From: Candidatus Iainarchaeum sp.
GTDB lineage: Archaea > Iainarchaeota > Iainarchaeia > Iainarchaeales > VGJJ01
Reading direction: 5' to 3'
Assembly (NCBI GenBank): GCA_016867455.1
Contig: VGJJ01000004.1
Span: 1 to 39,835 of the forward strand
Length of the DNA: 39,835 bases
Position numbers and translations under genes: made by a program. Shown in pieces: positions 6,166-31,798 of the stretch; position 1 is the first letter of the stretch; each line of letters opens with the position of its first letter. The notes below the pieces were generated by a model, which was not told where the DNA came from, made no database searches, and saw nothing but the letters and a program-made list of their open reading frames with translations.

Positions 6166-6834
6166 TTAATCCAGCATGCCATTCGCACGCATGCTGAACA
6201 ATTCTTCACGCGTAACAATCACGTGGTCCACTAATTCAATATCTATCCACTTGGATGCTTCCAAAATCTGCTTGGTCAAAATAATATCTGCCGGCGAAGG
6301 TTGAGCGATTTGGGAAGGATGATTATGCATTATCACTATTTTTCCCGCACCACGCTGCAACGCTTTGCTTAATACTTCGCGTGCATCTACGTGAACACGG
6401 AAACGGGTGCCCTCGCTCAATAAGATAGGTGCACCCATGCATGTGCCGCGCATATCCAAGCAAACTAAAAAAAATAATTCATTGGATGCATGACGCAAGC
6501 GAGAAGAAATAGAAACAACCGCGTCCTCCATGAAAACAGGTTCATGATTGACGTAGTGGATGCGTGAACCTAACTCAAGAGAGGCATGCAACTCAATGGC
6601 TTGCACTTTTCCCAAACCATTTTTTACGAGGCCGGCTAAATCCCTATTCTTGAGCACACTCAAATCACCGTCGCAGGAAGACAAAACATCCTGTGCTTGC
6701 TCAATGGCACTTTTACCTTTCCTCCCGGAACGCAGAATAATAGCCACTAATTCCACATCCGAAAGATGGGCCACTCCATTCATCCACGCCCGCTCACGCG
6801 GACGCAAATGAACAGGAATGAGACTGATTTTCAT
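6166..6834 (-). CDS. radC: RadC-like JAB/MPN domain protein
   Basis: RPRERAWMNGVAHLSDVELVAIILRSG N-terminal RadC region and JAMM motif HNHPSQIAQPSPADI. Confidence 0.85.
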   Translation of the reverse strand: MKISLIPVHLRPRERAWMNGVAHLSDVELVAIILRSGRKGKSAIEQAQDVLSSCDGDLSVLKNRDLAGLVKNGLGKVQAIELHASLELGSRIHYVNHEPVFMEDAVVSISSRLRHASNELFFLVCLDMRGTCMGAPILLSEGTRFRVHVDAREVLSKALQRGAGKIVIMHNHPSQIAQPSPADIILTKQILEASKWIDIELVDHVIVTREELFSMRANGMLD

Positions 6835-6929
6835 TCCTTTTACATGCGTGAAAACGAAGAAAAACCAACGAAGAATAATACATAACGCATTTTCGTCGTA
6901 ATTAAAAACGCCCCTGAGTTCTTTGGAAC

Positions 6930-7745
6930 ATGGCACCACTACACGAGCATGAAGAAATCCCGCTCCGTATTACGGCGTACTTTGATTTCATGTGTCCATG
7001 GTCTTACTTAGGAAGGGTGCGCCTCGCGCATGCACTGCAAAAAATAGGCGTGAAAAATTATCGAATAGAATGGGTGCCATTCGAATTATACACTCACAAC
7101 AAGGATCACCGCGTCTCCCGCGAAAAAATAATCGGACACGAACGCTTGAATGAAACCTATCACGAACTCCACTCTCTAGGAATGCGTGAAAACATTTTGA
7201 TATATCCCCCCAAATACGAAGCGAGCTCCAAACGCGCACTCACAGGATACTTGTACGCCCTCTCCCACGGATGCGGGGAAAAATACGTCGATGAACTTTT
7301 TCGAATCGCTTTCGAACACACGATGGACATTTCCTCATTTGCTGTATTGCGCCGAGCCGCACACACGCTTCACTTGAACACGGAAGAATTCTTACAATTC
7401 ATCCAAGACGAAAAAAACCACGACAAAATAGAAGAATACACGCGCGTGGCCAAACTAAATGGCGTGAGAGGCGTTCCCGCATATTACATTAATCACTTCC
7501 CCATCACGGGCGCGTTGAGCGTGGGAGAATTTGAACACATCATTCACACCGCCGCGCGAAAAACAACCCCCGCTTTCGTGCTTCCCGAGAAAAAAACTAT
7601 TCATCTGCCCGCAGCACGAAAAAAAAAGAAAAAAAATTCTACACTCAAAACAATCCAAAAAATACTTCACACACGCAAACCAGCGCCCAAAACCAAACAC
7701 CCCAAAAAAGGAAAAAAACCCGCTAAACGAGCTAAAAAACGATAA
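6930..7745 (+). CDS. DsbA-family (FrnE-like) thiol oxidoreductase with Lys-rich C-terminal tail
   Basis: TAYFDFMCPWSYLGRVRL, cis-Pro region GVRGVPAYYIN; tail KKKKKNS...KPAKRAKKR. Confidence 0.8.
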   Translation: MAPLHEHEEIPLRITAYFDFMCPWSYLGRVRLAHALQKIGVKNYRIEWVPFELYTHNKDHRVSREKIIGHERLNETYHELHSLGMRENILIYPPKYEASSKRALTGYLYALSHGCGEKYVDELFRIAFEHTMDISSFAVLRRAAHTLHLNTEEFLQFIQDEKNHDKIEEYTRVAKLNGVRGVPAYYINHFPITGALSVGEFEHIIHTAARKTTPAFVLPEKKTIHLPAARKKKKKNSTLKTIQKILHTRKPAPKTKHPKKGKKPAKRAKKR

Positions 7746-9265: not shown

Positions 9266-10528
9266 ATGACTGCCGAAAACATGCCATCTACCCAAGCCAA
9301 GAACACCTATGACGTTATCGTCGTGGGAGGGGGCCCGGGTGGAAACTCAACCGCGATGTTTTTGCACAAGAAAGGATACCGCGTTTTATTATTGGATAAG
9401 GCCAAGTATCCCCGCGACAAAATATGCGGAGACGCCATCTCCGGAAAAAGCGTGGGAATGCTCAAAGAACTCGGCATCGAACACGAAATGGAAAAACTAG
9501 ATACCGCAAAAGTATACGGACTCGTCTTCTCTTCTCCGGAAGGAAAAATGCTCGAAATCCCTTTTCCTGTAAAAGATGGGGAAGGACACACGAAAGCACG
9601 AGGATACGTTTGCCGACGCATCGTGTTTGACAATTTCTTATTTTCACACACCAAAAAAATGGTGGATGCCAAAGAAGAATTCCAAGTAACCGATTTGATT
9701 TGGGACAACGATACCGTGGTTGGAGTCAAAGGATTTGACATGAACACGAAGAAAGAATACGAATACAAGGCAAAATTTGTCATTGGAGCAGACGGTGCCA
9801 CTTCACTCGTGGCCAACAAAGTGGGTGCGGAAAAAGTTCCCGACGAACACTTGTGCATGGCGACGCGCGTATACTACGAAGGAATATCTGGAATGACGCC
9901 CAACATTGAAATTCACTTCATCGACTCCGTCATGCCCGGATATTTTTGGATTTTCCCATTAGAAAATGGAAAAGCCAACGTAGGATTGGGAATGGTTTCT
10001 ACGGACCGGCAAAAGAAAGGCGTCAATTTGGTGGCAGAAACCGAACGCGTAATTGTAGAACACCCCTTATTCAAAGAACGATTCAAGAATGCCAAAAAAC
10101 TAACGGACGTAAAAGGATGGACTCTTCCGTTTGGAAGCTTCAAACGAAAACTACACGGAAAAGGATGGTTTTTGGTAGGAGACGCCGCCTCGCTTGTTGA
10201 CCCATTCTCCGGAGAAGGAGTGGGAAACGCGATGACGAGTGGAAAATACGTCTCGGAAATAATCGATGAAGCATTCAAAACCAACAACTTCATGCAGGAA
10301 CACCTGTCACAATACGACACACGCTTATGGAAAGAAATCGGCCCCGAATTGCATACGAGTTACATGCTCCAAAAAATGGGCCGACACAAATGGTTGCTGA
10401 ACATGGTCATCGGGAAAGCATCCCGAAGCAAAGAAGTACGAGACACGATTAGCGGAATGCTGGTGAACGAAGAAGCACGAAAAAGCTTCATTTCACCCAT
10501 GTTCTACGTGAAATTACTCCTCGCGTAA
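9266..10528 (+). CDS. Geranylgeranyl reductase family FAD-dependent oxidoreductase
   Basis: YDVIVVGGGPGGNSTAMFLHKKGYRVLLLDK, CGDAISG, GWFLVGDAASLVDPFSGEGVGNAM. Confidence 0.85.
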   Translation: MTAENMPSTQAKNTYDVIVVGGGPGGNSTAMFLHKKGYRVLLLDKAKYPRDKICGDAISGKSVGMLKELGIEHEMEKLDTAKVYGLVFSSPEGKMLEIPFPVKDGEGHTKARGYVCRRIVFDNFLFSHTKKMVDAKEEFQVTDLIWDNDTVVGVKGFDMNTKKEYEYKAKFVIGADGATSLVANKVGAEKVPDEHLCMATRVYYEGISGMTPNIEIHFIDSVMPGYFWIFPLENGKANVGLGMVSTDRQKKGVNLVAETERVIVEHPLFKERFKNAKKLTDVKGWTLPFGSFKRKLHGKGWFLVGDAASLVDPFSGEGVGNAMTSGKYVSEIIDEAFKTNNFMQEHLSQYDTRLWKEIGPELHTSYMLQKMGRHKWLLNMVIGKASRSKEVRDTISGMLVNEEARKSFISPMFYVKLLLA

Positions 10529-12534: not shown

Positions 12535-14250
12535 ATGTCCACGCTCACGCATGACATTCTCATTATTGGGGCAGGCCTCGCCGGACAGCGCGCGGCGATT
12601 GAAGCACGCAAACAAAACATGGACGTGGGAATTATTTCCAAGGTCCACCCCGTACGTTCGCACTCTGTGGCGGCCGCGGGAGGAATTAATGCAGCCATTG
12701 GAGAAGGGGATGACTGGAAAGCCCATTTCCGCGACACCGTGTATGGAAGTGACTTTCTCGCCGACCAAGACGCGGTCAAAATACTCTGCCAAGACGCCCC
12801 CTCGCGTGTAAAAGAAATGGAATCCTGGGGCGTAGTCTTCTCACGAACCAACAAAGGAGAAATCGCCCAACGACCATTTGGAGGACAATCCGTTGCGCGC
12901 ACGTGTTACGCGTCCGACCGCACCGGACACATGCTCCTGCACACCACGTATGATCAGCTCATGAAAACACGCCCGACGATTTACTCGGAACACTATGCAT
13001 TATCCCTCATCACGGAAAACAACCACTGCGCGGGAGCAGTAGTATGGGACATGGAAAAAGGAAAAATCATTAGTATGCGTGCCAACGCCGTGCTGCTCGC
13101 CACAGGAGGATATGGGAGAGCATTCTCCGTGACCACGAATGCGCGCATCTGCACCGGAGACGGACTCTCCCTCGCGTACAACGCGGGATTGCCACTAGAG
13201 GACATGGAATTCGTCCAATTTCACCCATCCGGAATGTATGGAAAAGGATTCTTAGTCAGTGAAGCCTCGCGCGGAGAAGGAGCATACCTGCTCAACTCCA
13301 AGAATGAACGATTCATGAAAAAATATGCCCCCCAAAAAATGGAACTCGCTTCACGCGATATTATCGCGCGCGCAATCATGAGTGAAATCGCCCACGGAAG
13401 GGGATGCGGTTCCCAAAAAGACCACGTGTATTTAGACGTGCGACACTTGGGGGAGAAAAAAATCATTGAACGCATTCCAGAAATACGAAAAACCGTGCAC
13501 GAACAACTCGGCATGGATTGCGTGAAAGAACTCATCCCCATTATTCCAACCGCACATTACTCCATGGGGGGCGTTCCCACGAATGTGCACACGCAAGTCA
13601 TTGTGGACGCGCACAATAATCCTTTTCCAGGATTATATGCCGCGGGAGAAGTGTCCTGCTTATCCGTACATGGAGCTAATCGATTGGGAGGAAACTCTCT
13701 ACTAGAAACCATTGTATTTGGACGCATCGCCGGACAAAAAATGGCCGAGCATGTGCGCGAAAACACACGCAACAAGGGAAGTGTTGATTTTTCCCACCAC
13801 GAAGAAAAGGCCCGTGCTCGCGTGGACGAACTATTAACAAGCGTCAAAGGAACCAAGAGCCACGTTTTGAGAACAAAACTCCAACAACTCATGATGGAAA
13901 ACGTGGGCGTATACCGAAGCAAAACAGGATTAACCAGCGCCCAACGCGCATGGAAAAAACTCTCTACGGAAAGCAAAGCCATTCACGTGGAAGACAAGTC
14001 CCCTACGTTTAACATGGACCTCATTCACGCGTTAGAATGTCAAAACCTCGTAACATTCTCTCAAAGCATAATCGCCAGTGCCCTCGCACGAACCGAAACA
14101 CGTGGGAGCCACGCACGCACAGACTATCCCGCTAGAAATGATCAAAAATGGTTGAAACACTCCATGGCCGTGCAACACGGAGAAAACGTCCAATTATTCT
14201 ACAAGCCGGTAATCATTGCAGGATATGCTCCGGAAGCGAGGCACTACTAG
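12535..14250 (+). CDS. frdA/sdhA: Fumarate reductase/succinate dehydrogenase flavoprotein subunit
   Basis: HSVAAAGGINAAIGEGDDWKAHFRDTVYGSDFLADQDAV, RPFGGQSVARTCYASDRTGH, QFHPSGMYGKGFLVSEASRGEGAYLLN, HYSMGGVPTN, HGANRLGGNSLLETIVFGRIAG. Confidence 0.93.
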   Translation: MSTLTHDILIIGAGLAGQRAAIEARKQNMDVGIISKVHPVRSHSVAAAGGINAAIGEGDDWKAHFRDTVYGSDFLADQDAVKILCQDAPSRVKEMESWGVVFSRTNKGEIAQRPFGGQSVARTCYASDRTGHMLLHTTYDQLMKTRPTIYSEHYALSLITENNHCAGAVVWDMEKGKIISMRANAVLLATGGYGRAFSVTTNARICTGDGLSLAYNAGLPLEDMEFVQFHPSGMYGKGFLVSEASRGEGAYLLNSKNERFMKKYAPQKMELASRDIIARAIMSEIAHGRGCGSQKDHVYLDVRHLGEKKIIERIPEIRKTVHEQLGMDCVKELIPIIPTAHYSMGGVPTNVHTQVIVDAHNNPFPGLYAAGEVSCLSVHGANRLGGNSLLETIVFGRIAGQKMAEHVRENTRNKGSVDFSHHEEKARARVDELLTSVKGTKSHVLRTKLQQLMMENVGVYRSKTGLTSAQRAWKKLSTESKAIHVEDKSPTFNMDLIHALECQNLVTFSQSIIASALARTETRGSHARTDYPARNDQKWLKHSMAVQHGENVQLFYKPVIIAGYAPEARHY

Positions 14251-14251
14251 T

Positions 14252-15082
14252 ATGGCTGCACGCCAAAAAAAACGTAAACAAACGCGCAAAAACACGCGAC
14301 CGCGTTCACGCGAAACGAAAAAACGCCAACGCGCCCCCGTGAAAAAAACACGTGCAACGTTAAACATTGAAAAATCCATTCTTCACGTGAGAGTAGCGCG
14401 ATACAATCCTCAAATGGATTTTCACGCGCGCACGCACGAGTATCACGTGACGCTCAACAAAGGAGAAAGTGTACTTGATTTACTCACGCGAATTCACGAG
14501 ACGCAGGATGGGAGCTTAACCTTCCGTGCAAGCTGCGGATACGGAGGATGCGGTGCATGCGGAGTCAAAGTGAATGGAAAAACGGTACTCGGTTGCGTGA
14601 CGCAAGTCAGCGACCTCATGACCGAAAACCAAACCATACACATTGAACCATTGCATGAGAACGTCATCAAAGATTTAGTGGTGGACGAAAAGCCCTTTTT
14701 TGATGAATTAGAAAAAATAAGCCCATGGATAACCCCCCGCATAAATGATGTGAAACGAAACCACAAAATGGGAATCAATGATGTCCAAAAACTAGGAAAT
14801 GCCCACCAATGCATTCTCTGCGGAATATGCAACGCCCACGCCGAGAGTCAAAAAACAGGAGAATTAGGTCCCGCCGCCATGGTGAAAGCCTATCGATACC
14901 GCATGGATGTCCGCGACGCCAACACGCAGCGCGACGCTGTTATTAGTAAACAATTCCCCGTTCATTACTCACTAGAAAAGGCCAACGCCTGCCCCCGAAG
15001 CATTTTCCCGGGGGATAAAATAAAAGAGATGAGAGAATTATCTCATAAACAAAAACAAACTTTTCGCGGTGTGAAAAAATAA
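14252..15082 (+). CDS. frdB/sdhB: Fumarate reductase/succinate dehydrogenase iron-sulfur subunit, lacking [3Fe-4S] ligands
   Basis: [2Fe-2S] motif CGYGGCGACGVKVNGKTVLGC; CILCGICNAHAE and ANACPRSIFP; GPAAMVKAYRYRMDVRD; basic N-terminal extension. Confidence 0.9.
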   Translation: MAARQKKRKQTRKNTRPRSRETKKRQRAPVKKTRATLNIEKSILHVRVARYNPQMDFHARTHEYHVTLNKGESVLDLLTRIHETQDGSLTFRASCGYGGCGACGVKVNGKTVLGCVTQVSDLMTENQTIHIEPLHENVIKDLVVDEKPFFDELEKISPWITPRINDVKRNHKMGINDVQKLGNAHQCILCGICNAHAESQKTGELGPAAMVKAYRYRMDVRDANTQRDAVISKQFPVHYSLEKANACPRSIFPGDKIKEMRELSHKQKQTFRGVKK

Positions 15083-16563
15083 TGAAAAAAATACGCAAAC
15101 ATTATCGACTCGAGCAAGACGCCCTCGGAACCAAACGCGTTCCCAATGATGCGTACACGGGAATATTTTATTCCCGCGCAAAAGAAAACTTTTCACTATC
15201 AACAAGACGATTTCCTCAGGAATTTTTCCACCAATTAGCTATTATCAAACGCGTCTCGGCCGAAGAACACGTGAAATTGAAACAACTCGATGAAGAAGTA
15301 GGAAAAGCCATTGCACGCGCAACTAGGGAAGTAGAAAAAGGAACATTTGACGAGTGGTTCGACATTGATGTATACGAAGCAGGGGCAGGAACACCCCTCA
15401 ACATGACCATGAATGAGGTTATTTCTAACCGCGCACTCGAATTATTGCACGAACGCAAAGGAAAATACGCACGAATACATCCAAATAATCACGTCAACAT
15501 GGGACAGTCCACCAATGATGTAATTCCCACCGCACTGCGGATCACCACCTTATTATTTTCACGAGAACTTGAAAACGAACTAGAAAAAACCATCCACGAA
15601 ACACTAAAACTAAGTAAACGTTATTCCACTTTTGCAAAAACCGGACGCACGCACGTACAAGCAGCTGTTCCCGTGACATTTGGACAAGAATTGAGCGTGT
15701 ACGCCCATTCGTTACGTGAACGATTGGAAACCATCCGCGAGGCGAAAAACCATTTACTCACGATTCCACTCGGGGGAACAGCGGTAGGGACGGGCATCAC
15801 CACGACCCCCCATTACGCGCGCGCGGTCGTGCAACGATTAGCGCGCGAAACACGACTCCCTTTACGCGAGGCGCCTAATAAAATGCTCTTAACGAGCCAC
15901 ATGACGGATTTTCAACATTATTCCAATGCACTATCGGAGCTAGCATCGGATGTGCAACTATGGATGAACGATTGGGTACTCTTGGGATCGGACCCTTACG
16001 CGGGGTTGGGGGAAATCCACCTACTTGAAGTGGAACCGGGAAGCAGCATCATGCCTGGAAAAATTAATCCAAGTATTTTAGAAGCACTCAAAATGATCAC
16101 GTTACAAGTCCAAGGCAATCACGAGACCATCCGTCTGAGTTGCGAGTCCACGCAACTCGAACTTAATGTCATGACTCCCGTGATGGGAAGCAATTTGTTC
16201 GAATCCATTCAACTATTGACACGTGGAATAACCATGTTCCGCGAAAAATGTCTCGTACACGTTCGGGCAACTCCTCGTATGAGCGAATTATTACAAAAAA
16301 GCACATCCGTGGCAACGGCACTCAACCCATATGTGGGGTATGATGTGGTTGCATTCCTCGTGAAAAAATCACTCGCTACGAATACGTTGTTCTCCCAACT
16401 CGTGATAAATGAGGGATTGCTCCTCCCTGCCGAAGCCAATGTTTTACTGCATCCAGCATATCTAACAAAACCCCGAAAAGTAGATGCTGCTTTGCGCGCG
16501 GCCATCCGTTCACGCACAACGTATCAAAAAATTCGCGAGCATGTGCAAAAATATTCCCGATAA
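15082..16563 (+). CDS. aspA: Aspartase/fumarase superfamily lyase, probably aspartate ammonia-lyase
   Basis: RLEQDALGTKRVPNDAYTGI, AGAGTPLNMTMNEV, HVNMGQSTNDVIPT, GSSIMPGKINPSILEA, QLELNVMTPVMGSNLFESIQLL (aspartase-like rather than FumC-like). Confidence 0.78.
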   Translation: MKKIRKHYRLEQDALGTKRVPNDAYTGIFYSRAKENFSLSTRRFPQEFFHQLAIIKRVSAEEHVKLKQLDEEVGKAIARATREVEKGTFDEWFDIDVYEAGAGTPLNMTMNEVISNRALELLHERKGKYARIHPNNHVNMGQSTNDVIPTALRITTLLFSRELENELEKTIHETLKLSKRYSTFAKTGRTHVQAAVPVTFGQELSVYAHSLRERLETIREAKNHLLTIPLGGTAVGTGITTTPHYARAVVQRLARETRLPLREAPNKMLLTSHMTDFQHYSNALSELASDVQLWMNDWVLLGSDPYAGLGEIHLLEVEPGSSIMPGKINPSILEALKMITLQVQGNHETIRLSCESTQLELNVMTPVMGSNLFESIQLLTRGITMFREKCLVHVRATPRMSELLQKSTSVATALNPYVGYDVVAFLVKKSLATNTLFSQLVINEGLLLPAEANVLLHPAYLTKPRKVDAALRAAIRSRTTYQKIREHVQKYSR

Positions 16564-17784: not shown

Positions 17785-18396
17785 ATGACTGACGCTAAAC
17801 CACTAACCTACAAGACTCTCAACGGCCTGTCCGAAAAACAACTCGCCGAACACCACGACGTGCTGTATGCAGGATACGTGAAGAAAACGGATGAAATTCG
17901 CGAAAAACTCAAAACGGTTGATTTGACGAAAGCCAATGGAACATATTCTGATTTGAGAGAACTCAAACTCGAAGAAGGATTTGCGGTGAATGGTGTACGT
18001 TTGCACGAAGGATATTTTGCCGCGTTGGGAGGAAACGGTGGAAAACCGCAAGGGGACTTATTGAAAATGATTGAACACGACTTCGGATCATATGAGAAAT
18101 GGGAAGCCGAATTCAAAGCATTGGGTTTGTGTGCCCGAGGATGGGTCGTGCTCGCATTTGACTGGGAAGACATGAAATTACACAACTACATTTGTGATGT
18201 GCACAACCACGGAGGAATATGGTCCTGCTCTCCCGTTCTCATACTCGATGTGTACGAGCACGCGTACTTTTTGGATTATGGAACCAAACGCAAGGACTAC
18301 ATTGATGTGTTCATGAAGAACGTGAACTGGAAGAACCCGGAAACATTTGTACAGAATATGCGCCTCATGGAAGGAAGAAAGGCCGCAGGACACTAA
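17785..18396 (+). CDS. sod: Fe/Mn superoxide dismutase
   Basis: LAEHHDVLYAGYVKK; PVLILDVYEHAYFLDYGTKRKDYIDVFMKNVNW metal-ligand signature DxxEHAYxLDY. Confidence 0.92.
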   Translation: MTDAKPLTYKTLNGLSEKQLAEHHDVLYAGYVKKTDEIREKLKTVDLTKANGTYSDLRELKLEEGFAVNGVRLHEGYFAALGGNGGKPQGDLLKMIEHDFGSYEKWEAEFKALGLCARGWVVLAFDWEDMKLHNYICDVHNHGGIWSCSPVLILDVYEHAYFLDYGTKRKDYIDVFMKNVNWKNPETFVQNMRLMEGRKAAGH

Positions 18397-18435
18397 TCCT
18401 ACCCCCCTTTCCCGGGTGCCTTTTAATTTCTTTTT

Positions 18436-19635
18436 ATGGCCGATGATACTATGACGCTGGATACGCAAAACCCGTATGATATAGCCATTATTGGCGCCGG
18501 CCCCGCCGGGGGAAGCGCAGCCATCCATGCATCCAAAATGGGTCTCAAAACCATCGTTTTAGAAGAACACGCCAGTGTGGGAGACCCCGTGCACTGCGGA
18601 GAATGTTTGAGCGAAGTCGCTGAAACCCGCATCAACATGAAATTTCCACGCGAAGTCATCGCGCGACACGTGAAAGGAGTCAATGTCATTTTCCCGGACT
18701 CACACAAAGTAAAACTAACGGAAGCCGGATACGTTTTAGAAAAACACGCATTCGAAAAATGGTTGTCCAACGAGGCCCAAAACGCGGGAGCGGAATTATC
18801 ACTCTCTACACGCGTAACGAGTCTCGCACGTGAAAATGAACAATGGAATATTGAAACATCCCAAGGAAAAATTTCGGCACGCATGGTAATAGACGCATCC
18901 GGCGCCGCAGGAGTGGCCAACCGCATGCTCAACATGAATACGCGTTTTAGTGTCACGACGGGAATACAATACGAACTCTTGGATATTCCCCAAGAAGAAT
19001 ACTTGGATTTTTACTTGTGGCCAAGGCTCGCTCCCCACGGATACTTGTGGATGATTCCCAAAAATGATGGACGCGCGAACGTGGGACTGGTAACCCATGA
19101 TATTACGAAAGCCAAAACATACTTGGATCAATTCGTAAAAGAACTCGGTTGGGAATCCAAGAAAAAAATCAAAACATTTGGGGGACCCATTCCCTCGTCA
19201 GGGCCGGTGCAAAATACGGTGGGAGAAGGAATTATTTTAGTAGGAGACGCTGCCGGGTTTACTTCGCCATTATTCGAAGGAGGAACCCAACTCAGTCTCG
19301 TGAGCGGAAGGATGGCGGCAGAAGTAGCAAAGGACGCGTTCACCCAAAACAAATTCGACAAACCATTCTTGTCGCAATACGAAAAAAAATGGCGCGCCGA
19401 ATTCCCATCGTATGATAAAATAATCAAAGGAAAAAATGTCATTTATAATTTCACGGAAGACGAACTCAATCGCATTGGCCACTTGATGCCGGGAGAATTA
19501 TCTAATTTATCCGCAGTAGATAAAGCCAAAGTCGGTTTCAACGTGCTATCCCACAACTATGACTTGTACAAGAAAGGCGTTGTGGATGCATTCTTAGCAT
19601 TCGGATACTCTCGAGCAGCCCATTATGGCTGGTAG
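18436..19635 (+). CDS. Geranylgeranyl reductase family oxidoreductase (second paralog)
   Basis: YDIAIIGAGPAGGSAAIHASKMGLKTIVLEEHASVGDPVHCGECLSE; GIILVGDAAGFTSPLFEGGTQLSLVSGRMAAE. Confidence 0.87.
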   Translation: MADDTMTLDTQNPYDIAIIGAGPAGGSAAIHASKMGLKTIVLEEHASVGDPVHCGECLSEVAETRINMKFPREVIARHVKGVNVIFPDSHKVKLTEAGYVLEKHAFEKWLSNEAQNAGAELSLSTRVTSLARENEQWNIETSQGKISARMVIDASGAAGVANRMLNMNTRFSVTTGIQYELLDIPQEEYLDFYLWPRLAPHGYLWMIPKNDGRANVGLVTHDITKAKTYLDQFVKELGWESKKKIKTFGGPIPSSGPVQNTVGEGIILVGDAAGFTSPLFEGGTQLSLVSGRMAAEVAKDAFTQNKFDKPFLSQYEKKWRAEFPSYDKIIKGKNVIYNFTEDELNRIGHLMPGELSNLSAVDKAKVGFNVLSHNYDLYKKGVVDAFLAFGYSRAAHYGW

Positions 19636-19667
19636 CATTTTATTAATTCTGAGAACAAGAATCCTAT

Positions 19668-20537
19668 ATGAGTGTTTTGCACGTCGTCGATTATTCTCAT
19701 TCTGAAAAAATGTGCCGCAAACACGCCACCAGTTTCTCACTCGCCGCCGAATACCTTCCCGAACGCGAACGATTAGCCGCCTATGCCACGTATGGTTTTT
19801 GCCGCGTGACCGACCAAATCATTGATGGAAATGATTCTGTTCCGGAAAAGAAAAAACGATTAGATGAATGGAAAAATAATCTCACTCAGACCTGGAATCA
19901 TGGAACATCGTCCGACCCCATTTTGCATGCGTTTATACAAACGTGCCAACAATACGACATCCCTCCCGAATGGGGATTCCGACTCATTGAGGGATTGAAA
20001 AAAGACTTAGAAAAAAACACGTATGACAATTTTGATGAATTGTATGAGTATTGCTTCTCCGCCGCCGCCATCCCTGGACTGCTCATGGCATATGTTTTGC
20101 GCGCTCCTCATTCAGCACTTGAACATGCGATTGAATTAGGCATTGCGATGCAACTCACTAACATTCTGCGTGACGTCAAAGAAGACTTGGATGCAGGAAG
20201 AGTGTATTTGCCTCAAGATGAGATGAAAAAATTTAATTACACGCGTGAACAACTGGCTCGCCATGAAAAAAATGATTCTTTTTCTCAAATGATGGCATTC
20301 AACATCGCGCGCGCAAGAGATTATTACACCAAATCCGATGAAGGAATATCCCATCTGCCTGAAGATGCACGGTTAGGCATGCGTTTGTGCGCCGTATTCT
20401 ACCGCGAAATACTCTCCGAAATAGAAAAACGAGAATATGATGTTTTCACACAACGGGTATACGTATCCGATGAACGAAAAAAAGAACTGTTAATGAAAGA
20501 AAAAGACCTCCTCACAACGAGGATTAAAACAAAATAG
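19668..20537 (+). CDS. crtB: Phytoene synthase
   Basis: HATSFSLAAEYLPERERLAAYATYGFCRVTDQIID and NILRDVKEDLDAGRVYLPQDEM (two DxxxD motifs). Confidence 0.93.
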   Translation: MSVLHVVDYSHSEKMCRKHATSFSLAAEYLPERERLAAYATYGFCRVTDQIIDGNDSVPEKKKRLDEWKNNLTQTWNHGTSSDPILHAFIQTCQQYDIPPEWGFRLIEGLKKDLEKNTYDNFDELYEYCFSAAAIPGLLMAYVLRAPHSALEHAIELGIAMQLTNILRDVKEDLDAGRVYLPQDEMKKFNYTREQLARHEKNDSFSQMMAFNIARARDYYTKSDEGISHLPEDARLGMRLCAVFYREILSEIEKREYDVFTQRVYVSDERKKELLMKEKDLLTTRIKTK

Positions 20538-20554
20538 GGTGCACACTATATACT

Positions 20555-22108
20555 ATGCCTCGCCCCCGAAAAAATGACACCACTTCATCCGCGAAAAAAT
20601 CCCCTTCTCCGGACATACTAATCGTGGGAGCGGGATTAGGAGGGCTTTCCCTCGCGTGCCGATTAGCGAAAAACGGGTTGCGCGTGGAAATATACGAAAA
20701 AAACCCTTTTCCGGGAGGAAGGGCTGCACAAAAGAAAGTAAAGGGATACACGATTGACTTGGGTCCCACGTTTCTCCTCATGCCCGGAGAATTCGAAGAA
20801 CTATTTGCTTATTGCGGAAAAAAAATGAGCGACGTGCTCCCAATCGATTTACTATTGCCGAGTTACCGTTTGCACTATTGGGACGCTCAACACATGGATG
20901 TCAGCTCGAATCTCCCCCACATGCTCGCCGAAATAGCACGAGTATCGCCGCGCGAAACATCGGGATTTTTACGCTACCTCGAGCACGAATACCATGTGTA
21001 TGAGACCGTGTACCAGAACTTTATTGCCCACTCTCCCACGTCTCTCATTGATATTCTACTTTCGGGAAAAGCATTTTCATTTCTGCACGCGGACGGTTTT
21101 CATTCGATGTGGGACCACATGGAAAACTTTTTCACGAATCCTAAACTCAAACTTGCTTTCAGTTTCCAATCCATGTACTTGGGACAAAGCCCCCTGCTCA
21201 CGCCCGCGACCTACAGCATCGTGCCCTATGTGGAATTAGCCCAAGGAGTATGGTACCCACGCAAGGGGATTTATTCCATTGTCACCGAAATAGAAAAACT
21301 CGCACGCGAATTAGGAGTAATAATCCATTATGGAAAAAAAGTACGCGAAATAGTCATTGAAAATAATGCCGCGGTGGGGATACGATTGGAAAATGATGAA
21401 ATAATTCGATCCGCCACCATTGTTTCCGATGTGGATTTACCTGCCACGTACGCAAAACTCATTAATGCTCAACATCGGAAAAAATATTCAGACGCAAAAC
21501 TAATGAAACTCGAATACACGTGTTCGGCGTTCATGCTCTACCTGGGAGTGGACCAAAAATATGAACAATTATTACACCACAACGTGTTCTTCTGCGAAAA
21601 CTATTTGCAAAACTTCCACGAATTATTCGAACAAAAAGTTCTACCAACCAACCCAAGCATTTACGTCAATGTTCCCTCGCTCACAAATCCCAAACTCGCC
21701 CCCAAAGGCAAACACTTACTCTATGTATTAGTCCCCGTCCCCTCGAATGATCCCAAAAACGCGCAACATATTGATTGGGATGCGGAAAAAAACGCGTTCG
21801 CGGACAAAATCATTGAACAATTAGAGAAAAATGGCCTCACGGATTTGAAAAAACACATCTGCATGAAAGAAATACTCACTCCCAACGAGTGGGAAGCACT
21901 CGGCGGTTTACATCACGGAGCCACGTTTGGACTCTCTCCTACTTTCTTCCAAAGCAGCGTGTTTCGACCCCAACAAAAAAGCGAAGAGTTCAAGAATTTG
22001 TATTTTGTGGGTTCCAGCACTCACCCAGGAGGGGGAATGCCCATGGTGCTCATTTCCGCACGCACGTGCGCGGAGAAAATACTTTCCTTATTCCCGCGAG
22101 AAAAATGA
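20555..22108 (+). CDS. crtI: Phytoene desaturase
   Basis: ILIVGAGLGGLSLACRLAKNGLRVEIYEKNPFPGGRA; YFVGSSTHPGGGMPMVLISARTCAEKIL. Confidence 0.93.
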   Translation: MPRPRKNDTTSSAKKSPSPDILIVGAGLGGLSLACRLAKNGLRVEIYEKNPFPGGRAAQKKVKGYTIDLGPTFLLMPGEFEELFAYCGKKMSDVLPIDLLLPSYRLHYWDAQHMDVSSNLPHMLAEIARVSPRETSGFLRYLEHEYHVYETVYQNFIAHSPTSLIDILLSGKAFSFLHADGFHSMWDHMENFFTNPKLKLAFSFQSMYLGQSPLLTPATYSIVPYVELAQGVWYPRKGIYSIVTEIEKLARELGVIIHYGKKVREIVIENNAAVGIRLENDEIIRSATIVSDVDLPATYAKLINAQHRKKYSDAKLMKLEYTCSAFMLYLGVDQKYEQLLHHNVFFCENYLQNFHELFEQKVLPTNPSIYVNVPSLTNPKLAPKGKHLLYVLVPVPSNDPKNAQHIDWDAEKNAFADKIIEQLEKNGLTDLKKHICMKEILTPNEWEALGGLHHGATFGLSPTFFQSSVFRPQQKSEEFKNLYFVGSSTHPGGGMPMVLISARTCAEKILSLFPREK

Positions 22109-24610: not shown

Positions 24611-26086
24611 ATGTCGCAGCAGTGGGACCAATACGCACTCGTGGAGAGTTGGTTCAAGTCACGCAACTTCGCGCAGATGAACATTAACTCCTACAATCAA
24701 TTTGTCGACGACAAACTAAATGAAATTATTCACGAAAACAAAACAATCACACCTAAAATTGAAGAAGTGCGCATCGAATTGGAAGACATTGAAGTATTGA
24801 AACCCCGCATCGTGGAAGCAGACGGAAGCCCGCGAAATGATTTTTATCCCATGGAAGCGCGCATGAGAAACCGAACGTATTCAGCACCATTATTTTTGAC
24901 GATGCGCTTGCTGCGAAGAGACGTTGAACAAGACGTGAAGAAAACATACATTGGCGAATTGCCCGTCATGCTCAAATCAAAACTCTGCCACTTGCAGGGA
25001 AAAACAGCCGAAGAACTCATCAGCATGGGAGAAGACCCCATGGACTTTGGTGGATACTTCGTGATTAATGGAAGCGAAAAAGCACTCACCGCGCAGGAAG
25101 TACTTTCTTCAGACAGAATCCTCATCACCGAAAGTGCGGATGACAAAACCAGTGCGGAAGTTATTTCCACGAAAGGAGCGTTCAAAGGACGTGTACGTGT
25201 AACACGGGCGAAAGATGGTTTGTTGAGCGTGAGCTTCCCTGCCTCTCCGAGAAAACTACGATTATTTGTTTTGCTGAAAGCACTCGGCCTCAAAAGCGAA
25301 AAAGAAATTAATGATGCCTTTCCCGCGTTGAACGAAGTCATGAATGATGTCATGATCAACATGGAAGCCATGGACGTGAAAGACGAAGAAGAAGCACTCG
25401 ACAGGATTGGTAAGTATGTGGCGCCGGGACAAGTCATTGATTATCGTTTACGCCGAGCACAAGAAGTCATTGACGCATTCTTGCTTCCTCACATCGGAGA
25501 CAAGAAAGAAGATCGCCGCGCCAAAGCATACTTTTTGGCAACCATGGCCACGCGTGCCATTGAACGAGCGAATGGATTGCGCGGACAAGACGATAAAGAT
25601 AATTACGCCAACAAACGACTTGAACTATCGGGAAAGCTCATGGAGCACTTGTTCCGACACTCATTCAAGTATTTCATTAAGGATTTGACATTCCAGATTG
25701 ACCGAACCGTTACACGTCGTAGGAAATTAAACATTTCTACCGTCGTGCGACCCGGCGCCGTGACCGAACGCATCTTGTTTGGAATGAGCACGGGAAATTG
25801 GATCGGACGCTCAACGGGTGTGTCGCGCTTCATGGACCGCGTGAATTATTTGGGTCCGCTCACCGAGTTCCGAAAAGTAAAGTCTCCATTGAACAAGAAC
25901 CGCGAATTATACGAAGCACGTGACGTGCACGGAACACACTGGGGAAGACTGTGCTGCATTGAAACGCCGGACGGTCCACAATGTGGTTTGGTAAAGAACT
26001 TAGGATTGTTCTCCGAAGTCACGCAGGATGTGAAACCGGAGCCCGTTGAAAAATTACTCAAGGGAATGGATGTGTATTTGAAATAG
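24611..26086 (+). CDS. rpoB2: DNA-directed RNA polymerase subunit B''
   Basis: GGYFVINGSEKALTAQE, GLRGQDDKDNYANKRLELSGKLM, VHGTHWGRLCCIETPDGPQCGLVKNL. Confidence 0.97.
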   Translation: MSQQWDQYALVESWFKSRNFAQMNINSYNQFVDDKLNEIIHENKTITPKIEEVRIELEDIEVLKPRIVEADGSPRNDFYPMEARMRNRTYSAPLFLTMRLLRRDVEQDVKKTYIGELPVMLKSKLCHLQGKTAEELISMGEDPMDFGGYFVINGSEKALTAQEVLSSDRILITESADDKTSAEVISTKGAFKGRVRVTRAKDGLLSVSFPASPRKLRLFVLLKALGLKSEKEINDAFPALNEVMNDVMINMEAMDVKDEEEALDRIGKYVAPGQVIDYRLRRAQEVIDAFLLPHIGDKKEDRRAKAYFLATMATRAIERANGLRGQDDKDNYANKRLELSGKLMEHLFRHSFKYFIKDLTFQIDRTVTRRRKLNISTVVRPGAVTERILFGMSTGNWIGRSTGVSRFMDRVNYLGPLTEFRKVKSPLNKNRELYEARDVHGTHWGRLCCIETPDGPQCGLVKNLGLFSEVTQDVKPEPVEKLLKGMDVYLK

Positions 26087-26120
26087 TATTAAACATGGGA
26101 ACGAGGTTGAGGTGAAAAAC

Positions 26121-27938
26121 ATGGCTGCACAAGAAGGAAAAGTGTTCGTGAATGGAAAACTTGTGGGATTTCACAAGGATATCCACAAATTAACCAAAGA
26201 CCTCGTTGCCAAGAGACGATCGGGAAAAATTGACCCGCACGTGAACATTGCTTTGCACGAAGACACGCTCGAATTATACGTGAACACGGACTCCGGACGC
26301 GTGCAGCGACCCGTGATCGTCGTTGAGAGTGGAAAACCACGTGTAACGAAAGAAACGATCAAGCAAGTCAAAGATGGAAAACTCACGTGGAATGATTTAG
26401 TGCTGCAAGGATACATTGAATACTTGGACGCGGAAGAAGAAGACACGAGCCACATTGCGCTGCGCGAAGAAGACATTGTTCCCAAAACAACTCATTTGGA
26501 AATCAACCCCATGGGAATATTCTCGGTCATCTCATCCATGATCCCATTCTTAGAACACAACTTGGCTGGAAAAACATTACACGGTGCAAAAGTGTTCAAA
26601 CAAGCAGTAGGAATTCCTGCTGCTAACTATAATTTACGCACGGACACGGAATCATACTTGCTCTATTACCCGCAACGCGAACTTGTACGAACGAAAACAC
26701 TTGACTTTTTGAACACGGATCAACGACCCATGATTCAAAACTTTGTCGTGGCCATTATGCCCTACATGGGATTCAACGTTTTGGACTCCGTGGTGTTAAA
26801 CAAAGGAGCCGTTGACCGCGGACTCGGACGCGCAGCCTATTTCCGCAATTACGAAAGCGAAGAAACACGCTACCCGGGCGGACAAGTGGACAAATTTGAA
26901 ATACCCAACGAAGAAGCAGTAGGACACTTGGGAGAAGACCCGTACAAAAAATTAGGAATTGACGGATTAGCCGAATTAGAAATGAGCGTATCGGACAAGG
27001 ATGTCATCATCGGAAAAACATCCCCTCCCCGATTCTTAGAAGAAATCACCGAATTTGGAGTGATACAAGAAAAGAGACGCGAAGCCTCACTCTTTCCACG
27101 CAAGGGAAAGCCCGGCGTCGTTGATCGTGTTATTTTGACGGAAGGAACGAGTGGTGCACGCATTGCCAAAGTGAAAGTGCGCTCCAACATGATTCCCGAG
27201 CCCGGTGACAAATTTGCATCCAAACACGGACAAAAAGGAGTATTAGGAGCCATTATTCCCGAAGAAGACATGCCTTTTACGGAAAGCGGTATTCGTCCGG
27301 ATCTCATCCTGAACCCACACGCTATTCCCACACGTATGACGATTGGTCACATGCTCGAAATGCTCACGGGAAAATCCGCTGCATTGGGTGGAAAAACCAT
27401 TGATGGAACACCCTTCAACGAAGATCCAGTGGAAGACTCGAAGAAGATTCTCGAACAATTCGGTTTTCGCAGCGACGGAAAAGAAGCATTCTACGACGGA
27501 CGCACCGGTCGGAAAATTGAAGGAGAAATCTACACCGGAATCATTGCCTATCGTCGATTATTCCACATGGTCGCGCACAAGCTTCAAGCACGTTCACGCG
27601 GACCTGTCCAAATTCTCACCCGACAACCCACGGAAGGTAAGGAAAAAGAAGGTGGATTGCGTTTCGGAGAAATGGAAGGAGAAACACTCGTGGGGCATGG
27701 TGCAGCAATGCTATTGCAGGAAAAATTCATTGATGATTCCGACAAAGTCACCGAACTCGTGTGTGACAATTGCGGAGTCATTGCAGTGAACGATCAGATT
27801 CGAAAGAAACGATTCTGCCCCATGTGTGAGAGTACGAGCGTTTACCCCGTGCAAATGTCATACGGGTTCAAACTCTTACTCGATGAGTTGAAAGCACTCG
27901 GAATTTATCCCAAAATGAAATTGGTGGATCGAGCGTAA
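26121..27938 (+). CDS. rpoB1: DNA-directed RNA polymerase subunit B'
   Basis: GDKFASKHGQKGVLGAIIPEEDMPFTESGIRPDLILNPHAIPTRMTIGH; CDNCGVIAVNDQIRKKRFCPMC. Confidence 0.97.
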   Translation: MAAQEGKVFVNGKLVGFHKDIHKLTKDLVAKRRSGKIDPHVNIALHEDTLELYVNTDSGRVQRPVIVVESGKPRVTKETIKQVKDGKLTWNDLVLQGYIEYLDAEEEDTSHIALREEDIVPKTTHLEINPMGIFSVISSMIPFLEHNLAGKTLHGAKVFKQAVGIPAANYNLRTDTESYLLYYPQRELVRTKTLDFLNTDQRPMIQNFVVAIMPYMGFNVLDSVVLNKGAVDRGLGRAAYFRNYESEETRYPGGQVDKFEIPNEEAVGHLGEDPYKKLGIDGLAELEMSVSDKDVIIGKTSPPRFLEEITEFGVIQEKRREASLFPRKGKPGVVDRVILTEGTSGARIAKVKVRSNMIPEPGDKFASKHGQKGVLGAIIPEEDMPFTESGIRPDLILNPHAIPTRMTIGHMLEMLTGKSAALGGKTIDGTPFNEDPVEDSKKILEQFGFRSDGKEAFYDGRTGRKIEGEIYTGIIAYRRLFHMVAHKLQARSRGPVQILTRQPTEGKEKEGGLRFGEMEGETLVGHGAAMLLQEKFIDDSDKVTELVCDNCGVIAVNDQIRKKRFCPMCESTSVYPVQMSYGFKLLLDELKALGIYPKMKLVDRA

Positions 27939-27964: not shown

Positions 27965-30583
27965 ATGCTGTTGAAAAAAATCCAAAACATTGAATTCGGT
28001 GTACTTTCTCCTGAACAAATACGAAAAATGTCAGCGATTGAAATCAAAAGTCCTGAAACATACGACAAAGACGGATACCCCATGGAAGGCGGACTCATGG
28101 ATCCCCACTTGGGAGTCATCAATCCCTCATTACGCTGTAAGACCTGTGGACAAAAAATGAAACAATGCCCCGGACACTTCGGTAGTTTAGAAATGGTCCG
28201 ACCCATTGTTCATCCCAAGTTCTCCAACAAACTCGAAGAATTATTGCATGCCACGTGTAAAGAATGCGGAAAAATAGCATTGAAAGACGAATCATTAGAA
28301 GAATTCAAGAAATCCATTGAACGATTAGACAAAGAAGAAGCCGTGAAATTACTCGTGAAGAAAACCAAAACCAAGCGAAAATGCCCCCACTGCGGAGCGG
28401 CGAGAGCGGAAATTTTGTTGGACAAACCAACCAACTTCTACTTGGACAAGGACCGACTCTACCCATCCCAAATTAGAGAATGGGTCGAAAAAATATCCGA
28501 AGAAGACTTGAAATTATTCGCCTATGACTTGACACGACTGCGACCCGAATGGTTTATTCAAACCGTGTTGCAAATCCCCCCCATCACGATTCGACCATCC
28601 ATTACTCTTGAATCGGGAATCAAATCCGAAGATGACTTGACGCACAAGTTAGTAGATGTTATCCGCATTAATCTACGATTGAAAGACAACATTGATGCGG
28701 GAGCACCACAACTCATTATTGAAGACTTGTGGGACTTGCTCCAGTATCACGTCACCACGTACTTTGATAACGACACCGCGGGAGTGCCTCCCGCGAAACA
28801 CCGCTCGGGTCGTTCACTCCGAACACTGGTGCAGCGATTGAAAGGAAAAAAGGGTCGTTTCCGATACAACTTAACCGGAAAGCGCGTCAATTATGCCGCA
28901 CGATCAACGATTATCCCAGACCCCTACTTGAGCATTAACCAAGTCGGAGTGCCTGAACCCATTGCCAACAATTTGACGGTGCCCGAATTTGTCACGGAAT
29001 GGAACATCGAAGAAATGAAAAAATTCATCAAGAAAGGAGACAATGTCGTTTACATCACGAAACCCAATGGTTTACGTAAGAAAGTCACGGAACTCAACAA
29101 GAAAGAAGTCATTGAAGAATTAGAAGTAGGAAGCAAAGTCGAACGCATTCTACAAGACGGAGACATCGTCTTGTTCAACCGACAACCCTCACTTCACCGA
29201 TTGTCCATGTTGGCGCACGAAGTAAAAGTCATGCCCAACAAGGCCATCCGAATGAACCCCATGGTATGTAAACCCTACAACGCGGACTTCGACGGAGACG
29301 AAATGAACCTACACGTGCCTCAAACACAAGAAGGAATATCCGAAGCACGCGAACTAATGTACGTGGAAAACCAAGTCATCTCCCCAAGACACGGTCAACC
29401 CGTTATTGGCGGACAAGAAGATGACATGACAGGATTATTCATCCTAACCATGGACCAGACCGAGTTCACAAAAGAAGAAGCCATGCACTATTTGTACAAC
29501 ATGGGAATTACTGAACTTCCAGAACCTGATCGCGGAAAAAAATACTCCGGAAAACTCATCTACTCCATGGCATTGCCTGAGAAACTAAACGTGGAATACC
29601 ATAACAACACGGCCAAACAATTGAAAGGAGCCAAAATTCCACGAGAAGGAAATGAAGCCATCTACAAAGACGCGGAAGTCAAAATCGAAGATGGAAAACT
29701 CGTGAAAGGAACAATCGACTCGTCTTCTGCACTTGTTGAGAGTATTTTACGAAACTACACCCCGCATGAATTGGAACGCTATTACTGGAGAATGGCCCAC
29801 CTCACGCACGAATTATTGACAACGAAAGGATTGTCCATTTCCATTGCCGAATTTGAAAACACTCCCGAATTAGAAAACGTGCGAAAAGAAGCCATCGAAG
29901 AAGAAATCACGGAAGGAACAGAACTCGCACGCAAGTTTGCGGAAGGAGTACTCGAACCATTGCCCGGACGCACCGTGGGAGAAAGTTTCGAATTACTCAT
30001 GGTTAGATTGGGAGGAAAAACAAAAGCCAAGGTCCAAGGAAAAATTGCCGAATACAAACTCAAGAAACTCTTGGAAGCCAAACGCCCCACTCTCGACACG
30101 ATGCCTATTATTGTTTCCGGAGGACGCGGAAGCATGCTGAACGTGGCCAACATGTCCGGATTCTGGGGACAAATCTCCGTCCGTACCGGAAGACCCAAGA
30201 AAGGATTCACGGGCCGATTAATCGCATTGAACGAGAAAAACGACCTCGCTCCCAAAGCCGGAGGATTCGTCTCCTCGAACTTTGTCCAAGGAATGAACCC
30301 CACGGAATACTTCATGCACTCCATGGGTGGACGACAAGGAGAAGTGGACACGGGTGTTGCGACAAAAGTGTCGGGATACTTGTACAGACGATTAGCTAAC
30401 TCCTTGAAGGATTTGCACGTTTCCAACGACGAAACTGTACGAACGGCCAACAAAGACGTTGTCCAATTCCGCTACGGAGAAGACGGAGTATTCCCCGCCC
30501 GCACGAGTGGGGGGAACTTTGCCAATATGGATGAAATTATTCGCAACATGAATCGCAAAGAAAAAAAGGAAAGGAAGAATTAA
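27965..30583 (+). CDS. rpoA1: DNA-directed RNA polymerase subunit A'
   Basis: Catalytic NADFDGDEMNLHVPQT; zinc ribbons CKTCGQKMKQCPGHFG and CKECGK/CPHCGA. Confidence 0.98.
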   Translation: MLLKKIQNIEFGVLSPEQIRKMSAIEIKSPETYDKDGYPMEGGLMDPHLGVINPSLRCKTCGQKMKQCPGHFGSLEMVRPIVHPKFSNKLEELLHATCKECGKIALKDESLEEFKKSIERLDKEEAVKLLVKKTKTKRKCPHCGAARAEILLDKPTNFYLDKDRLYPSQIREWVEKISEEDLKLFAYDLTRLRPEWFIQTVLQIPPITIRPSITLESGIKSEDDLTHKLVDVIRINLRLKDNIDAGAPQLIIEDLWDLLQYHVTTYFDNDTAGVPPAKHRSGRSLRTLVQRLKGKKGRFRYNLTGKRVNYAARSTIIPDPYLSINQVGVPEPIANNLTVPEFVTEWNIEEMKKFIKKGDNVVYITKPNGLRKKVTELNKKEVIEELEVGSKVERILQDGDIVLFNRQPSLHRLSMLAHEVKVMPNKAIRMNPMVCKPYNADFDGDEMNLHVPQTQEGISEARELMYVENQVISPRHGQPVIGGQEDDMTGLFILTMDQTEFTKEEAMHYLYNMGITELPEPDRGKKYSGKLIYSMALPEKLNVEYHNNTAKQLKGAKIPREGNEAIYKDAEVKIEDGKLVKGTIDSSSALVESILRNYTPHELERYYWRMAHLTHELLTTKGLSISIAEFENTPELENVRKEAIEEEITEGTELARKFAEGVLEPLPGRTVGESFELLMVRLGGKTKAKVQGKIAEYKLKKLLEAKRPTLDTMPIIVSGGRGSMLNVANMSGFWGQISVRTGRPKKGFTGRLIALNEKNDLAPKAGGFVSSNFVQGMNPTEYFMHSMGGRQGEVDTGVATKVSGYLYRRLANSLKDLHVSNDETVRTANKDVVQFRYGEDGVFPARTSGGNFANMDEIIRNMNRKEKKERKN

Positions 30584-31798
<1,215 letters not shown>

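Follow-up and report, generated by a model that had tools for sequence, protein, structure and literature searches.

Complex II is the textbook case of a linear electron wire, in which the last iron-sulfur cluster is tied to quinone chemistry. Can such an enzyme give up this cluster, and with which partner would it then exchange electrons? The question is raised by a gene pair in the window, i.e., the whole stretch of 39,835 nucleotides analysed here, which belongs to an archaeal draft genome of 876 kb in 62 contigs. An sdhA/frdA-like gene for a flavoprotein subunit of 571 aa (12535..14250, + strand) is directly followed by an sdhB/frdB-like gene for an iron-sulfur subunit of 276 aa (14252..15082, + strand). 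The latter lacks the three cysteine ligands of the [3Fe-4S] cluster. A natural loss of exactly this cluster tests whether it serves anything beyond quinone exchange.

Cluster ligands of the iron-sulfur subunit

The product of 14252-15082 matches Pfam Fer2_3 (8e-28), the NCBIfam SdhB family (1e-54) and the SdhB chains of complex II in the PDB. Its ligand positions were set by alignment with E. coli SdhB and FrdB. Eight cysteines were counted in the translation, and every one of them is a ligand. The four cysteines of the [2Fe-2S] cluster, which the initial annotation described as intact, are present as C95 (14534-14536), C100 (14549-14551), C103 (14558-14560) and C115 (14594-14596), within 14534..14596 (all ligand codons are on the + strand). 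The [4Fe-4S] ligands C187, C190 and C193 stand in motif I, CILCGIC (14810..14830), and C247 (14990..14992), the equivalent of E. coli C216, is kept as the fourth. Hence, E. coli SdhB C149, C152, C155 and C216 all correspond to cysteines in the window protein. The three [3Fe-4S] ligands are lost: A197 (14840..14842) stands in the place of E. coli C159, V237 (14960..14962) in that of C206 and K243 (14978..14980) in that of C212. The initial annotation had read the first motif as CILCGICNAHA at 14810-14842, with the first three cysteines kept and alanine at the fourth position, and both coordinates and reading are exact. Its account of the second motif, in which only the last cysteine is retained and the two preceding ones are replaced by V and K, agrees with the alignment, as does its division into four kept [4Fe-4S] ligands and three lost [3Fe-4S] ligands.

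A shifted or substituted ligand was ruled out. The displaced cysteine against which the initial annotation had warned does not appear in the alignment, the protein having eight cysteines only, and no conserved Asp, His or Cys is found near the lost positions. The window protein is therefore considered, with high confidence, to lack a [3Fe-4S] cluster, as far as its sequence can tell. The AlphaFold model of the subunit has a mean pLDDT of 77, with core blocks mostly at 75-95. Its best fold matches in the PDB are E. coli SdhB (1nek_B) and other (mitochondrial) complex II SdhB chains, and the core superimposes on 1nek_B with a target-normalised TM-score of 0.78. With such best matches, the subunit is predicted to retain its fold even in the absence of this cluster.

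Distribution and reality of the loss

SdhB was present in six of the 87 genomes searched for the phylum. The family studied here, of very small and uncultured archaea, comprises four Diapherotrites/Iainarchaeota-like genomes, namely the window genome (G000), G001 and G002, which belong to the same genus, and G003 from a second genus. All are drafts, with completeness estimated at 94%, 96%, 86% and 71%, respectively. The triple ligand loss is common to all four in the alignment; the initial annotation had proposed a search of relatives for the same three-cysteine loss and named close homologues with full ligand sets as a refutation, and the close homologues have the loss. The Ala/Val/Lys pattern of the three same-genus genomes is not a strict signature, as the second and third residues are Ile and Ala in G003 (A/I/A). 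None of the four proteins has lost any of the other eight ligands. The extra cysteines of G001, G002 and G003 sit at non-equivalent positions, and no conserved replacement ligand was seen among the four aligned sequences.

In the tree, the four family SdhBs group as a single clade with a long stem (support 100/99), so a single loss event is the simplest history. The open reading frames are intact, and the codon comparison yielded dN of about 0.4 or more with dS mostly saturated, which speaks against both assembly error and chance; the family sdhAB genes are under purifying selection. An error of sequencing, assembly or frame, for which the draft state of the window genome might be invoked, was ruled out and has a negligible probability, since the same loss is common to four diverged genomes whose SdhBs are 36-54% identical to the window protein and have the eight other ligands intact. 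The triple loss is virtually certain to be real.

Outside the family, the cysteines are kept. All three [3Fe-4S] cysteines are found in the SdhB of G019 and G041, which belong to the same order, in E. coli SdhB and FrdB, and in the other 78 of 80 genome-contig loci, which were the best 80 of 280 matches to two peptide patterns. The record JAGVNS010000090.1 (L007), titled Thaumarchaeota archaeon, has the same SdhB as G002. This title is probably a misassignment, G002 being of the window genome's genus.

The family SdhB also has a Lys/Arg-rich N-terminal tail (14252..14365, + strand), with 17 K/R among the first 40 residues of the window protein, which is predicted to be disordered (pLDDT about 50). 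The tail is common to the three same-genus genomes and weaker in G003. An association with the membrane surface or with nucleic acid is possible.

The flavoprotein subunit and its substrate site

The window SdhA scores 740.9 bits against TIGR01812 (cut-off 567), matches Pfam FAD_binding_2 and Succ_DH_flav_C, and finds the SdhA chains of complex II in the PDB with an E-value of 1e-150. Its residues were compared with those of E. coli SdhA, FrdA and NadB. The covalent-FAD His45 and the residues H242, E255, R286, H354 and R399 are kept in G000 and G003, and T254 is replaced by Ser in both, a conservative change. L-aspartate oxidase (NadB), acting in NAD synthesis next to a vestigial iron-sulfur subunit, was also considered. 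NadB is a close paralogue of SdhA, and TIGR00551 gives 391 bits. This score is, however, under the cut-off of 452.75, while that of TIGR01812 is well above its own; the covalent-FAD His is present at position 45, where NadB has Ser; and NadA, which 12 of 14 control genomes match, was not found in G000-G003 by single-family search. NadB identity was ruled out on these grounds, and such a reading is highly improbable. On family scores and residues, the window SdhA is no aspartate oxidase but an oxidoreductase of dicarboxylates.

The SdhA of G001 (L093 9997-11736) departs from this picture. R399G, T254P, F119L and G51D were found in it, the FAD-binding His being kept. The substrate-binding Arg (E. 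coli R399) is thus Gly in this genome, and the two-cluster SdhB is still intact. The protein evolves fast (49.9% identical to that of G003, against 60.6% for G000), and its function may have changed or be drifting. Either G001 obtains fumarate elsewhere and its site is remodelled, or its enzyme is in the course of repurposing or decay. As these changes come with the lack of any detected class II fumarase/aspartase in G001 and G002, fumarate reduction cannot be assumed for the whole genus.

The same observations could indicate a complex in decay, the redox function fading and the iron-sulfur subunit being retained structurally: in G001, SdhA evolves fast and has lost substrate residues, and neither G001 nor G002 yielded a lyase. 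However, the eight other ligands persist in four of four genomes, the reading frames are unbroken, dN lies far below dS, and the SdhA of G000 and G003 is intact. Decay is thus quite improbable.

Membrane anchor and quinone

The enzyme could still be linked to the membrane if the [4Fe-4S] cluster delivered electrons directly to an anchor-bound quinone or haem, the anchor being one beyond the reach of the Sdh_cyt model; complex II anchors are poorly conserved. In single-family searches, whose negative results are weaker for G003 (71% complete) and G002 (86%), no match was obtained in G000-G003 for Sdh_cyt (PF01127; 8 of 14 control genomes match), COX1 or the 49-kDa large subunit of complex I/hydrogenase. 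The SdhA, SdhB, lyase and DUF2203 products of the cluster contain no TM-like segment. In the family neighbourhoods read, sdhAB has no multi-pass membrane gene next to it, nor was an SdhE/CCG subunit observed next to the window sdhAB. Moreover, the quinone-site positions P160, W163/W164 and I209 of E. coli SdhB are not conserved in the family, and the equivalent of H207 is kept in two of the four proteins.

In G019 and G041, by contrast, sdhB is immediately followed by the gene of a membrane protein in which five TM-like segments are predicted. These two genomes keep both the cysteines and a membrane gene, and neither was found at the family sdhAB. The cysteine triad and the anchor therefore go together here, as one evolutionary contrast and not several. 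The membrane genes of G019 and G041 likewise matched none of the NCBIfam families and reached no Pfam cut-off, which leaves some room for an overlooked anchor in the family, and a ferric-reductase-like multi-pass membrane protein, identified by eye, is encoded about 8 kb from sdhAB in G003 (L094 19310-19888). Against this stand the neighbourhoods, the missing COX1 and complex I-type subunits and the altered quinone site, and a membrane link is considered unlikely. The initial annotation had suggested that the electron partner is probably not a membrane quinone. The genome context, with no anchor, COX1 or complex I-type subunit, supports this suggestion, and family SdhAB very likely has no quinone partner. 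A cupredoxin-like protein was also noticed by eye near sdhAB in G003 (L094 4931-5617).

Gene neighbourhood and probable source of fumarate

The stop codon of sdhB is overlapped by 1 base by the gene of a class II fumarase/aspartase-family lyase (15082..16563, + strand; 493 aa), as indicated by Pfam Lyase_1, PRK12273 and PDB matches. The lyase scores 476 bits against PRK12273, below the cut-off of 510, and matches aspartase in the PDB with an E-value of 6e-103. It has the motifs QSTND and GRTH (QSSND in the G003 lyase), and unusual substitutions occur at normally conserved motifs (GRTHVQA, GSDPYAG). The signatures are mixed, and the choice between fumarase and aspartase is ambiguous from the motifs. 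The lyase is the probable fumarate-producing partner of SdhAB. In G003, the gene order is GGR-family flavoprotein, sdhA, sdhB, malic enzyme and fumarase/aspartase. Malic enzyme is also present in G000 and G001.

Other neighbours are linked to isoprenoids. A geranylgeranyl-reductase-family flavoprotein is encoded at 9266..10528 (+ strand; TIGR02032, 211 bits), and the GGR-family gene of G003 lies immediately upstream of sdhA (L094 11688-12917). Carotenoid-synthesis genes are also grouped near sdhAB, with SOD, geranylgeranyl reductase, phytoene synthase and a CrtI-type desaturase (window 17785-22108; G001 L093 2108-7705). Small lycopene-cyclase-like ORFs were recognised by eye in the G001 cluster.

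A repurposed flavoenzyme is suggested by this setting. SdhAB would act on another dicarboxylate or on an isoprenoid-linked step, and the [4Fe-4S] cluster would exchange electrons with the neighbouring geranylgeranyl reductases or the CrtI-type desaturase. The neighbourhood with GGR-family flavoproteins and SOD is conserved, CrtB/CrtI accompany it in G000 and G001, and the adjacency in G003 as well as the R399G change and the lack of a detected class II lyase in G001 point the same way. Nevertheless, the dicarboxylate-site residues tested are retained in the SdhA of G000 and G003 except for the conservative T254S, the lyase of the operon and malic enzyme are ordinary enzymes of C4-dicarboxylates, and neighbours in small genomes need not belong to one pathway. 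Repurposing is therefore rather unlikely, although it fares best among the alternatives.

Candidate electron donors

A small ferredoxin with a single [4Fe-4S] cluster (Fer4_13/Fer4_15) is encoded in G000, G001 and G003. In the PDB it matches a few proteins, every one of them a short ferredoxin, and we take it to be of the Pyrococcus/Thermotoga type. Most Fer4 matches were rejected as carriers, as they appeared by eye to be ABCE1/RLI or RNA polymerase subunit D-like proteins, and the small ferredoxin is the sole candidate. For its reduction, each of the genomes G000-G003 encodes exactly one NAD_binding_1 NAD(P)H reductase of the FNR superfamily. POR_N has no match in any of the four; ferredoxin reduction driven by POR was rejected on this ground, which makes a path through the FNR-type reductase likelier. 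In a comparative study, ferredoxin was recorded for 72.4% of Diapherotrites, and complex II was listed for Micrarchaeota and for Parvarchaeota (PMC8407392).

The genes of the ferredoxin and the reductase sit on other contigs than sdhAB, and no specific tie to SdhB is seen in the genomes. Both proteins probably also serve the geranylgeranyl reductases and other enzymes. The chances that ferredoxin would be the direct donor to SdhB are put at even. The succinate/fumarate couple, near +30 mV, is far more oxidising than ferredoxin and cannot reduce it. A ferredoxin partner thus implies fumarate reduction, which is likely to be the main direction in G000 and G003.

Proposed mechanism

The ligand loss and the lack of any sign of an anchor in the genomes point to an enzyme that is probably a soluble fumarate reductase using a small electron carrier. 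From the sequences, we infer cluster content, donor, direction and physiology of the family SdhAB. The pair at 12535-15082 would be a membrane-anchor-free FrdAB with a wire of FAD, [2Fe-2S] and [4Fe-4S]. The [3Fe-4S] cluster would have been lost once, in the family ancestor, together with the need for an anchor in the membrane. A low-potential, soluble carrier of single electrons may dock at the former anchor/[3Fe-4S] region and feed the [4Fe-4S] cluster directly. The likeliest carrier would be the single-[4Fe-4S] ferredoxin, reduced via the FNR-superfamily NAD(P)H reductase. Electrons would then run from NAD(P)H through the reductase and ferredoxin to [4Fe-4S], [2Fe-2S], the covalent FAD and finally fumarate, which would be reduced to succinate. 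The fumarate may come from the adjoining fumarase/aspartase gene product, supplied by malic enzyme (pyruvate + CO2 to malate) or by aspartate. In sum, the pair would act as a cytosolic electron sink in a fermentative cell without a respiratory chain. An anchor-free FrdAB with a shortened wire, reducing fumarate with electrons from ferredoxin as a cytosolic sink, is slightly favoured overall. More tentatively, the enzyme might represent a distinct class of complex II in one DPANN family, i.e., a soluble two-cluster FrdAB fed at [4Fe-4S] by ferredoxin or by the FNR-type NAD(P)H reductase and reducing fumarate independently of quinone and membrane.

If true, this would provide a naturally soluble FrdAB for electrochemistry. 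It would also illustrate a way in which minimal, fermentative archaea could convert an enzyme of respiration to a redox sink in the cytosol.

Comparison with known systems

The classes of complex II differ in their anchors, and fully soluble SdhA homologues exist (PMC10238741). Like the SdhAB and FrdAB of E. coli and mitochondrial complex II, the window pair has the catalytic SdhA residues, the covalent-FAD His, the SdhB fold and the [2Fe-2S] and [4Fe-4S] ligands. Unlike them, it is without the three [3Fe-4S] ligands, the quinone-site residues and a recognised anchor. The pair is an SdhAB by fold, flavin site and two clusters, and departs from this type at the third cluster and the anchor.

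In E-type enzymes, a second [4Fe-4S] cluster takes the place of [3Fe-4S] (PMC2680327). The quinone-proximal cluster is altered both in these SdhAB-SdhE enzymes (Acidianus, Wolinella, Campylobacter) and in the family, and the family SdhB branches near sequences with the extra E-type cysteine, with a support of only 96/73. In the family, however, the cluster is removed and not replaced. A second [4Fe-4S] of the E-type was ruled out, as the window protein has eight cysteines only and position 209 reads S, D, S and D.

The thiol:fumarate reductase TfrAB (CoM/CoB) of methanogens is quinone-independent, cytosolic and archaeal, and the family enzyme is proposed to be alike in these respects. The TfrB profile matches the window SdhB over positions 3-222 of 488 with 120.8 bits (cut-off 385). 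TfrB identity was ruled out by this score and by the absence of a C-terminal HdrB-like domain in the 276-aa protein.

The soluble fumarate reductases Osm1/Frd1 of yeast maintain redox balance in anaerobiosis (PMC10238741; PMC6242907). They and the flavocytochrome c3 of Shewanella are soluble like the proposed enzyme, but they have no SdhB and no shortened iron-sulfur wire. Osm1/Frd1 take electrons from reduced flavin, and in flavocytochrome c3 the electrons come from a haem domain. No report of a plain loss of the third cluster was found in the open-access literature searched, most subscription journals being outside its scope.

Other features of the window

The B and A subunits of RNA polymerase are split over two genes each (24611-27938 and 27965-31798), as in many archaea. 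A RadC-family gene (JAB domain) is present in this archaeon at 6166-6939, and a similar RadC-like ORF was noted by eye beside the syntenic cluster of G001 (L093 16559-17260).
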